Assembly (NCBI RefSeq): GCF_003008515.1
Contig: NZ_CP027668.1
Coordinates: 2,472,001-2,536,000, forward strand
Reading direction: 5' to 3'
DNA: 64,000 bases
Source of the DNA: Phreatobacter cathodiphilus
GTDB taxonomy: Bacteria; Pseudomonadota; Alphaproteobacteria; Rhizobiales; Phreatobacteraceae
The notes beneath the pieces were generated by a model that saw only the letters and a list, made by a program, of their open reading frames with translations, was not told the origin of the DNA and did not search any database. A program made the translations under genes and the position numbers. This document shows positions 40,114 to 45,617 of this stretch, piece by piece. Positions within the stretch are counted from its first letter, which is position 1; each line of letters opens with the position of its first letter.

Positions 40114-40121
40114 TTGGATCT

Positions 40122-40175
40122 CCATCCTCACAGATGGGCGTGCCCCGTTGGGGGGGCATGTCCCGCCGACCGGGA
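40122..40175 (-). ncRNA. Structured leader of serC (candidate serC RNA motif)
   Basis: Three hairpins sit side by side just upstream of serC: TCCCG-N5-CGGGA (40161-40165 with 40171-40175), TGCCCC-N6-GGGGCA (40141-40146 with 40153-40158) and CCATC-N6-GATGG (40122-40126 with 40133-40137). The last ends next to the ribosome-binding site. A conserved serC leader motif with consecutive hairpins has been described in alphaproteobacteria, and this may be a member; I could not compare it with the covariance model. Confidence 0.5.
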
Positions 40176-42482: not shown

Positions 42483-42636
42483 GAGACGGGTCCCCGGAAG
42501 GTCTCGGTTGCGGCGCTGGGCGCAGCGACCGAGGCACCGCATTTTCCGCCGTCCGTCAAGCCCGCGGACCCGTCGCTCCTTGCCCGCGCGAACCGCATGC
42601 TGCGGCGCGAAGAATCGCCCCCTGCACCGGCGCAGG

Positions 42637-42652
42637 TTAACTCAGGGTTAAC
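42637..42652 (+). promoter_or_regulatory. CtrA binding site (full TTAA-N7-TTAAC box)
   Basis: TTAA-CTCAGGG-TTAAC matches the CtrA consensus at every fixed position, and the flanking bases extend it to an inverted repeat (GGTTAA...TTAACC, 42635-42653). A TTTATC hexamer at 42661-42666 could be the -10 element, which would place the box over the -35 region, the usual place for activation. The predicted start of transcription, near 42672, is just before the small RNA hairpins. Confidence 0.7.
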
Positions 42653-42669
42653 CTTTCTCCTTTATCAAG

Positions 42670-42767
42670 GAAATCGTTCAGTTCGCTGGACGCGAGTGGC
42701 TCCTGTCCACTCTGTTTGACGCCTCCCTGTATTCCACTTCAAGGCCGCCTCCGGGCGGCCTTTTTTT
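42670..42767 (+). ncRNA. Candidate CtrA-controlled small RNA
   Basis: About 98 bases contain three hairpins in a row. Hairpin 1 (42675-42692) is CGTTCAG-TTCG-CTGGACG, seven pairs with a UUCG tetraloop. Hairpin 2 (42694-42712) is GAGTGG-CTCCTGT-CCACTC, six pairs with an anti-Shine-Dalgarno CUCCU in its loop. A single-stranded stretch with GCCTCCCTG follows, and then an intrinsic terminator. No start codon with a ribosome-binding site is present. A loop-exposed CUCCU is the feature that alphaproteobacterial trans-acting sRNAs use to block ribosome-binding sites. It could be related to CcnA- or EcpR1-type cell-cycle sRNAs; I could not test this. Confidence 0.6.
42741..42767 (+). terminator. Rho-independent terminator of the small RNA
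   Basis: AAGGCCGCC and GGCGGCCTT form a nine-base stem with a TCCG loop, followed by seven Ts ending at 42767. It is too far from hydA (which runs the other way) and before rcdA, so it must end a plus-strand transcript that starts inside the gap. Confidence 0.9.
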
Positions 42768-42998
42768 GTCCGCGCACCGGCCGCCGATACAGGCCGCCTT
42801 GGCAGCGCCGCGATTTCGTCGTCTGATGACCTCGAGGCCATCCGGCTGTCCCGTCGCGGGACGGCCCGGGCTGGCACCGCCCTTGCTGCATCGAGCCGAG
42901 AGCTGCCTGCCGTCCTCCCGTTTACCTTTCCTTAAGCAAAAGCTTTACAGGAGCGCGGGTACGGCGGCACACACGGGTCCTGAGGGAGTTGTTGCGTG

Positions 42999-43529
42999 AT
43001 GTCGCATGAGAGCGTTCCGTCCATGGCCGAGCCGACAGTCGCCTTCGGGGCGCGCCTCGCCAGTTCCCCCGCCTTCAAGGACCTGTTCCGCGACGGTATG
43101 AGCCTCGTGGAGGAGACGGCCGCCTATCTCGACGGCCCCGGCCGCGAGGAGAGCCGCGCCCTCGACCGCGGGCCGGCCCTCGCCTACGCCACCGAGAGCA
43201 TGCGCCTGACCACCCGCCTGATGCAGCTCGCCTCCTGGCTGCTGCTGCAGCGCGCGGTCAACGAGGGCGAACTCACCCAGGAACAGGCGGCGCAGGAAAA
43301 GTCCAAGGTGCGCCTGTCCTCCGTCGGCGCGCCGACCCCGGCCTCCATCATCGACGAACTGCCGCCCTCGCTCGGCGTGCTGATCGGCAAGGCCATGCGG
43401 CTGCAGGAGCGCATCGTCCACATGGACCGGGTGCTGTTCTCGCAGCAGGCGGCCGAGGCCGAGGCCCAGGTCAACCCCATTTCCGGCCAGATCGACCTTC
43501 TGGCGAGCGCTTTCGGCATCCGTCGCTGA
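42999..43529 (+). CDS. rcdA: RcdA-like protein (DUF1465), adaptor for CtrA degradation
   Basis: The 176-aa protein matches DUF1465 from end to end: FRDGMSLVEETAAYLDGPGR, then LTTRLMQLASWLLLQRAVNE and IGKAMRLQERIVHMDRVL. In Caulobacter RcdA is an adaptor that helps ClpXP deliver CtrA to degradation at the pole, and it folds as a three-helix bundle. ATG 42999 is preceded by a GAGGGAG site; a GTG at 42996 is directly adjacent. A divergent half-matching CtrA box (TTTA-N7-TTAAG, about 42922-42937) lies closer to the gene than the perfect box at 42637. The control of rcdA by CtrA is plausible but unproven here. Confidence 0.85.
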   Translation: MSHESVPSMAEPTVAFGARLASSPAFKDLFRDGMSLVEETAAYLDGPGREESRALDRGPALAYATESMRLTTRLMQLASWLLLQRAVNEGELTQEQAAQEKSKVRLSSVGAPTPASIIDELPPSLGVLIGKAMRLQERIVHMDRVLFSQQAAEAEAQVNPISGQIDLLASAFGIRR

Positions 43530-44567: not shown

Positions 44568-45617
44568 ATGGTCAAGCAATTTGCGGCGGCAGCGGCCGCC
44601 ATCCTGTGTCTGACGGCGACAGCGTCGGCACAGTCGCCCGGCAATGCCGTGGTCTTCGCCATCTTCGAGAATCCGGAGCCGCATCACGGCTGCATCGTCA
44701 GCGAGCGCAACCGCGACGGCGGTTACGACAATCTCGTTCTGGGGCGCTGCGACAGCCCGGCTGCGCAATTCGTCTTCGACGAGCGGGCGAAACGCATCAG
44801 GCCGGCCGCGCGGCCGAACCTGTGCGTGGGTGATACGACAGGGGCGGGCGATGCGCCCTTCGACGCCATCCTGCGCGACTGCACGCCCGACGGCGTAGGC
44901 CAGTTCTACACCTACAACCGTGGCCGCCGGCTGATCGTGGCACTCACCGAGGACAACCGCGAGGAGCGCGACGGCTACTGCCTCTATGTCGGTCCGCAGC
45001 GCGGCCGGCGCACGGCCATCCTCGCCGAGCCCTGCCACCACCGCCGTCCGCGTGCCGCGCAGACGGCCTTCTTCATCACGCCGGCCAGTGCGGTCGGTGC
45101 TGCCGGCGCGGGCGCACCCGCATCGCCGCCTCCCCCGGCCGCACCCATGGCGTCCGACCCGCGTCCGCCGCAGGCGGCTCCGGCGTCCGGCCAGCTGACG
45201 CGCACGCCCTGGGGCCGGTCCGGCCCATGGACCATCGACGCCTCTTCGACGCCCGCCGGCTTCAGCACCTGCCGGGCCGTGCGGCAGAGCGACAGCGGCG
45301 AGATCCGCATCGGTCTCAACGCCCAGCTCGACATGACCATGTCGACCCCGGCCGACCGCGCCACGGCTCCTCCCGGAACCCGGGCCAACGTCGTGCTCCG
45401 CGCCGGCCGCGACCGGGAGACCGTGCCGGGCTCGGTCAATTCCGAGGGCCGGCTCGCCTTCACTGTCCCGCCGCCCATCGGCCGGACCATGGTCGAGACG
45501 AACTTGCGCGAGATGTTCGTCGAGGGCCCCGACGGCATGTCGGTGGTGCCGATCGCCGGATTCCGTGGACTCTGGGACGAGCTCAACGCCTGCGTCAGCG
45601 CGCAGGGGCGCCGCTGA
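44568..45617 (+). CDS. Secreted protein of unknown function
   Basis: The 349-aa protein has a clear signal peptide (VKQFAAAAAAILCLTATASAQ). The N-terminal domain (about 22-165) is rich in paired cysteines (HHGCIVSER, LGRCDSPAA, NLCVGD, ILRDCTPDG, DGYCLYVG, AEPCHH) and has the repeated FVFDERAKRI / YTYNRGRRL pattern of a beta-trefoil-like carbohydrate-binding fold. A Pro/Ala linker (about 175-205) leads to a C-terminal beta-rich domain with GPWTIDASSTPAGFSTCRAV. The layout suggests a periplasmic or extracellular binding protein. I do not recognise a named family. Confidence 0.75.
   Translation: MVKQFAAAAAAILCLTATASAQSPGNAVVFAIFENPEPHHGCIVSERNRDGGYDNLVLGRCDSPAAQFVFDERAKRIRPAARPNLCVGDTTGAGDAPFDAILRDCTPDGVGQFYTYNRGRRLIVALTEDNREERDGYCLYVGPQRGRRTAILAEPCHHRRPRAAQTAFFITPASAVGAAGAGAPASPPPPAAPMASDPRPPQAAPASGQLTRTPWGRSGPWTIDASSTPAGFSTCRAVRQSDSGEIRIGLNAQLDMTMSTPADRATAPPGTRANVVLRAGRDRETVPGSVNSEGRLAFTVPPPIGRTMVETNLREMFVEGPDGMSVVPIAGFRGLWDELNACVSAQGRR

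Follow-up and report, generated by a model that had tools for sequence, protein, structure and literature searches.

The small RNA encoded upstream of rcdA in Phreatobacter cathodiphilus belongs to a known RNA family, Rfam RF02356 (BjrC1505), and in most of the genomes of its order that we examined it is preceded by a CtrA-type box and followed, on the same strand, by rcdA, the gene for an adaptor in CtrA proteolysis. We have not found this regulatory setting, an order-wide CtrA-type box together with linkage to rcdA, described. On the sequence evidence we favour, with some reserve, the view that BjrC1505 is a stand-alone, trans-acting anti-Shine–Dalgarno RNA, the promoter of which is under CtrA control. 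The locus was analysed within a stretch of 64,000 nucleotides (the window), and its features are collected in Table 1.

Table 1. Features of the BjrC1505–rcdA locus, in window positions.
Feature	Position	Strand	Basis
CtrA-type box TTAA-N7-TTAAC	42637–42652	+	Pattern scan; conserved at the same position in relatives
Match to Rfam RF02356 (BjrC1505)	42630–42768	+	90.5 bits, cut-off 50; model positions 1–140 of 140
−10-like TTTATC/TATCAA	42661–42668 (TTTATC 42661–42666)	+	Sequence; weak conserved TTAT-like stretch ~11 bases past the box in relatives
Hairpin 1, UUCG loop closed by G-C	42675–42692	+	Fold; helix 1 covariation, both-side changes in 6/6 pairs
Hairpin 2, loop CUCCUGU	42694–42712	+	Fold; helix 2 covariation, 5/6 pairs
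Unpaired conserved linker TTTGACGCCTCCCTG, with anti-Shine–Dalgarno CCTCCC at 42722–42727	42715–42729	+	
Intrinsic terminator (42741–42762) plus T-run	42741–42767	+	Fold, terminator; helix 3 covariation, 5/7 pairs
Second CtrA-like box, 7 of 8 bases, TTTACCTTTCCTTAA, near rcdA	42921–42935	+	
rcdA, adaptor for CtrA proteolysis	42996–43529 (start GTG 42996 or ATG 42999)	+	NCBIfam, PDB, Pfam

The match to RF02356 is full-length, lies well above the gathering cut-off and is the only one in the genome. The RF02356 model spans the promoter box, and its first part probably lies outside the transcript, which is predicted to start near 42675 and to extend to about 42767 (about 93 nt). In the original BjrC1505 paper the RNA is said to have been demonstrated by RNA gel blot; the Rfam description of the family gives no link to CtrA or rcdA. 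Under stricter search filters, which lose weak matches, 126 of 150 genomes of the own order gave a match to RF02356 (108 of them above the cut-off), as did 30 of 289 genomes drawn from the class; three of those 30 belong to the own order.

The region from 42664 to 42768 folds into three hairpins at −38.5 kcal/mol (z −3.43), and none of 200 shuffled sequences was as stable. Copies of at least 50 bits and with enough DNA numbered 108 of 130, and 50 of these, hand-picked for diversity, were aligned by sequence only. In this alignment 96.0% of the cells are paired in the three hairpins and 16 of the 19 pairs show changes on both sides, against a mean of 6.1 in shuffled alignments (none of 500 was as high); versions in which the pairing was slid drop to 33–53% paired. 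RNAalifold found the same three helices unprompted. The UUCG loop of hairpin 1 varies among relatives. An earlier note on this DNA had proposed a structured small RNA with three hairpins (a UUCG tetraloop, a CUCCU loop and a terminator) and had named compensatory changes and a comparison with Rfam as checks; the fold, the covariation and the assignment to BjrC1505 all agree with that proposal. The view that the RNA is new is not supported, given the Rfam family and a probable Sinorhizobium meliloti counterpart, Sm84/SmelC671, which according to the accounts available was detected in 2008 and 2010.

The most conserved segment of the RNA lies outside the hairpins. It is the linker GCCUCCCUG, an unpaired anti-Shine–Dalgarno stretch that connects hairpin 2 with the terminator and is absent from the earlier account. 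CTCCCTG occurs in 121 of the 130 copies and the 15-mer TTTGACGCCTCCCTG in 93, and in the window RNA the CUCCC of the linker is unpaired at 0.97–0.99, so that the exposed, conserved anti-Shine–Dalgarno segment expected of a trans-acting RNA of this kind is present. By contrast, CTCC is found in the loop of hairpin 2 in 49 of the 80 copies in which this hairpin fits a simple pattern, and the role of main seed previously given to the CUCCU loop is not supported.

The window contains TTAA-N7-TTAAC at a single location (two rows in the scan, because the box is palindromic there), with a mean of 0.00 in 100 shuffles. The whole 4.49-Mb genome holds 16 distinct locations (24 rows, against 2 rows for a reversed-pattern control); perfect boxes are thus rare. 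A TTAA-N7-TTAA box at the promoter, expected of members of the CtrA regulon, is present here in perfect form. Both this box and the −10-like TTTATC behind it had been recognized correctly beforehand; a scan for the sigma-70 consensus gave no match in the sRNA promoter region of the window.

We scored the best match within the 80 bases before the conserved core, taking at least 7 of the 8 bases of TTAA-N7-TTAA as a box. Among the copies selected by Rfam, 120 of 128 have a box and 51 have a perfect one (13.4% and 1.05% in dinucleotide shuffles), and in 111 of the 128 it sits at the usual 18 positions (3.4% in shuffles), counts that are biased in that the RF02356 model includes the box. This bias is absent from an independent set of at least 120 contigs chosen solely by the 20-mer core CTCTGTTTGACGCCTCCCTG, in which 112 of 115 listed copies have a box and 48 a perfect one (5.5% and 0.2% in base shuffles). 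Copies short of upstream DNA (2 of 130 and 5 of 120, respectively) were excluded. The eight Rfam-selected copies that fall below 7 of 8 include L097, L102 and L130, which are second copies in the genomes G097, G024 and G049 and are perhaps decaying or chance matches. Anchored on the box, the family profile is a direct repeat, TTAAC-N6-TTAAG/C, with a weak −10-like stretch about 11 bases later. A separate box of at least 7 of 8 bases near rcdA itself is found in 29 of 117 spacers (5.7% in shuffles).

The identity of rcdA rests on the NCBIfam equivalog NF051867 (213.7 bits, cut-off 170), on RcdA of known structure (PDB 3ctw, E = 5.2e-38) and on Pfam DUF1465. In the window, 231 bases separate the Rfam match from the RcdA alignment, the distance given in the earlier note; in relatives the median is 199 nt (range 107–1206). 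The 126 own-order genomes carry 130 copies of the sRNA, and 118 of these, in as many genomes, have rcdA downstream on their own strand, so that the two are linked in 118 of the 121 genomes that have both. The three exceptions are all assemblies in many pieces; the other unlinked copies in rcdA-bearing genomes are the second copies mentioned above. In the core-selected set, rcdA follows on the same strand within 800 nt in 110 of at least 120 listed contigs, and 7 of the 10 listed contigs without it are too short to judge; these records include Bradyrhizobium, Devosia, Stappia, Roseibium, Bosea and Mesorhizobium. The expectation that box and sRNA would be conserved beside rcdA in relatives is thus borne out in most of the own-order genomes examined.

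The other neighbours change. In the window the sRNA lies between a hydantoinase gene and rcdA; the hydantoinase gene adjoins it in four loci, all of the own genus, and yebC lies downstream of rcdA in five loci, again all of the own genus. Downstream of yebC, the window encodes a protein with a signal-like start (44568–45617, + strand) and a weak match to a ricin-type beta-trefoil lectin (21.9 bits, below the cut-off of 29). A serC leader (RF00517, 59.3 bits, cut-off 35) is found at 40117–40168 on the − strand, just upstream of a phosphoserine transaminase gene.

Five genomes contain the sRNA and no DUF1465 match, and all six of their copies keep a box of 7/8 or 8/8. This argues for a box that goes with the RNA and against the RNA being a leader of rcdA. 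A core-selected copy from Labrys sp. KNU-23 has more than 6 kb of downstream sequence without rcdA and by eye resembles one of these genomes; rcdA may have been lost in the Labrys lineage while the sRNA stayed. Conversely, 15 own-order genomes have rcdA and no Rfam match. Inspection by eye revealed a reduced version (a CCTCC or CTCCC stretch plus a terminator) in nine, none in four and an unreadable region in two; a simple script recovered seven of the nine, of which six have an upstream box of at least 7/8, together with one additional place that was left uncounted. Outside the own order, the class search gave 29 matches in 27 genomes. Of the 25 matches that were fetched, 13 are followed by rcdA on the same strand within 1.5 kb and 12 are not, and among 20 fetched class genomes with rcdA and no Rfam match a similar upstream element was seen by eye in one. 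In two records from a family of another order, an aminotransferase-like open reading frame comes 280–368 nt after the RF02356 match, with rcdA about 40 kb away.

In Sinorhizobium and its relatives the scores against RF02356 (cut-off 50) are low: 27.2 bits in S. meliloti Ak57, 28.3 in Sinorhizobium sp. C101 and 31.7 in Shinella; Methylobacterium bullatum reaches 50.5. The order in Ak57 is DUF1192, a perfect box (L442:1129–1143), an RNA with CUCCCUGUU and a terminator, a second perfect box (L442:1303–1317) and DUF1465. The Ak57 record, CP090106.1 (L442/L446), is labelled pSymB yet carries 6S RNA, rpmE, tkt, gap and pgk and is chromosome-like; the plasmid label is probably wrong. In the published material available, Sm84 is placed between SMc03988 and SMc03989, on the same strand, with a Northern band of ~80 nt, microarray signals under six stresses and a predicted sigma-70 promoter; it is listed as SmelC671 (2986421–2986520 of strain 1021) and was detected by RNA-seq too. 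The 2008 table puts 6S RNA between SMc03975 and SMc03976, and counting genes from 6S RNA in Ak57 places DUF1465 at SMc03989 to within one number, the distance from 6S RNA differing by ~1.3 kb between S. meliloti strains. Gene order thus argues strongly that SmelC671/Sm84 is probably the S. meliloti counterpart. Judged through the Ak57 RNA, to which gene order ties it, SmelC671/Sm84 is like the window RNA in being intergenic, on the same strand and before a probable rcdA, and in its perfect box, CUCCCUGUU and terminator; it differs in its low score, longer second hairpin and altered linker. According to Reinkensmeier (2011), the family RFMSmelC671 extends over several Rhizobiales families and shows extensive microsynteny. 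The main texts of that paper and of the 2010 survey mention neither rcdA nor CtrA, and the text of the 2008 paper does not mention CtrA.

CtrA has been connected with rcdA itself. In S. meliloti, the relevant passages of Pini (2015) report, CtrA has a ChIP-seq site at the promoter of rcdA, and rcdA mRNA is unchanged on CtrA depletion; they make no mention of the sRNA. As far as the extracts go, a 2013 map of transcription start sites places a CtrA motif upstream of an rcdA start in S. meliloti; an agrobacterial study found several starts before rcdA, with CtrA sites further upstream than in Caulobacter; and CtrA is reported not to regulate rcdA in Hyphomonas neptunium. We hypothesize that the distal box is an sRNA promoter, which would fit all three reports of CtrA sites and starts; S. 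meliloti, however, has two boxes there. Among the abstracts, main texts and passages searched, we found none that joins BjrC1505 or SmelC671 with CtrA or rcdA.

BjrC1505, named for Bradyrhizobium, has the same linker, hairpins and terminator as the window RNA and differs from it in no part of the RNA. Other small RNAs resemble it less; what follows on them draws on the pertinent passages of the published accounts. CcnA of Caulobacter crescentus is likewise small, displays a C-rich loop, has a promoter that contains a CtrA box and acts in the CtrA circuit, although CtrA activation of ccnA is itself termed putative. Unlike the window RNA, it lies at the replication origin, carries CCCC in Loop A and acts on ctrA and gcrA; a search of a Caulobacter control genome with RF02356 gave no match. 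EcpR1 (SmelC291) and GspR (SmelC775) of S. meliloti are rhizobial sRNAs that act on cell-cycle mRNAs, and the passages concerned do not report CtrA control of either. They lie at other loci, downstream of divK–pleD and between SMc03844 and SMc03845, respectively, and have other motifs. Identity with either was rejected on locus; for EcpR1, with its loop motif UCCGCCGCAUCU, the neighbours and the loops (UUCG and CUCCUGU) also disagree. The nearest subthreshold Rfam family, MmgR/suhB (RF00519), shares a CUCCCU segment before a similar terminator, but it occupies another locus, is under NtrC control in S. meliloti and scores 22.8 bits against a cut-off of 41, and was rejected.

Complementarity searches, in which only a few candidate genes were examined, gave no convincing or conserved target. 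A search of the own genome with ACAGGGAGGCGTCAAAC, allowing up to 3 mismatches, gave 11 places, one being the sRNA and the other ten all having 3 mismatches; the reversed control gave 8, so that enrichment is absent. Among start regions, the best match lies 13 nt before a tctA gene; it is absent from a 91% ortholog, and tctA was rejected as a conserved target. The pattern CAGGGAGG-N3–11-ATG gave 37 rows and loci for 30, from which 20 open reading frames of at least 60 aa were kept; Pfam identified eight as components of transport systems, or nine if LptF/G is counted. With the control CAAGGAGG there were 38 rows, 30 loci and 20 kept frames, three or four of them transport-like as judged from their first residues rather than by a Pfam scan, and we draw no conclusion from the difference.

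Computation establishes the RNA family, its fold, its linkage to rcdA and the conservation of its box. As regards mechanism, CtrA would bind the box just upstream of the −10 region and would switch the sRNA on, repression being less likely. The product, two hairpins plus terminator, would use its linker to pair with the Shine–Dalgarno regions of target mRNAs, assisted in many species by the CUCCU loop, and would lower their translation while CtrA is active. rcdA would be a conserved neighbour with a promoter of its own and sometimes its own CtrA box, outside the sRNA transcript. As a special case, the CtrA-induced sRNA might repress rcdA or act on ctrA and thereby tune CtrA stability. Such feedback, the model of the earlier note, draws on the conserved linkage and on the pairing of rcdA starts with the linker (median −12.25 kcal/mol), which is better than that of the other open reading frame starts at these loci (−9.6 kcal/mol; p = 1.2e-6), with ACAGGGA in 5 of 116 rcdA starts and 2 of 389 others (p = 0.008). 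However, rcdA starts have no advantage over their own shuffled versions (p = 0.29), GGGAGG occurs in none of the 116, and ctrA starts (30 printed, 29 with duplex energies) are not clearly better than shuffles by a crude method that allows unrealistically long pairings. The sRNA is, moreover, kept where no rcdA was detected, and we regard feedback on CtrA turnover as unlikely.

Still less probable is that the RNA forms the 5′ part of an rcdA transcript, its terminator setting read-through and the box serving rcdA. The conserved upstream, same-strand position would agree with this, as would the CtrA sites credited to rcdA in the S. meliloti and agrobacterial extracts, but the variable gap to rcdA, the three genomes in which the two are unlinked and the discrete small band of the probable S. 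meliloti counterpart, as far as described, speak against it, and we demoted it because RNA and box persist in genomes where no rcdA was found. The box might instead be bound by another regulator or be an AT-rich promoter feature, leaving the sRNA outside the CtrA regulon. The sigma-70 promoter predicted for Sm84 and its signals under six stresses, according to the material available, fit constitutive or stress expression as well and to that extent count against control by CtrA; the window box is, in addition, a perfect inverted repeat. That symmetry is not shared by relatives, the family profile being a direct repeat as for CtrA, and a palindrome-binding regulator was rejected on this ground. 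With a spacing-specific pattern far above shuffles in two sets, and CtrA encoded in 94 of 101 own-order genomes, we give a non-CtrA box little credence.

In the literature available, RNAs with a tie to the CtrA circuit come from single species, CcnA of Caulobacter being an example. Beyond the reading of BjrC1505 as a CtrA-controlled anti-Shine–Dalgarno RNA, it is conceivable, although we would not yet back it, that BjrC1505/SmelC671 serves throughout the order as a core RNA output of CtrA: an old, CtrA-activated anti-Shine–Dalgarno RNA kept beside rcdA, whereby CtrA is united with its degradation adaptor and a translational silencer. The rhizobial CtrA sites credited to rcdA would then be, at least in part, the promoter of the sRNA. 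If this were true, with a CtrA box on an rcdA-adjacent RNA in Bradyrhizobium, Mesorhizobium, Devosia, Bosea, Sinorhizobium and many others, control by RNA would belong to the core of the order's cell-cycle circuit. It would also explain, in a way open to testing, why CtrA binds at the rcdA promoter of S. meliloti when, in the published passages, rcdA mRNA does not respond to CtrA depletion. An uncharacterized Rfam family thereby gains a concrete hypothesis and a tie to a separately named rhizobial sRNA.
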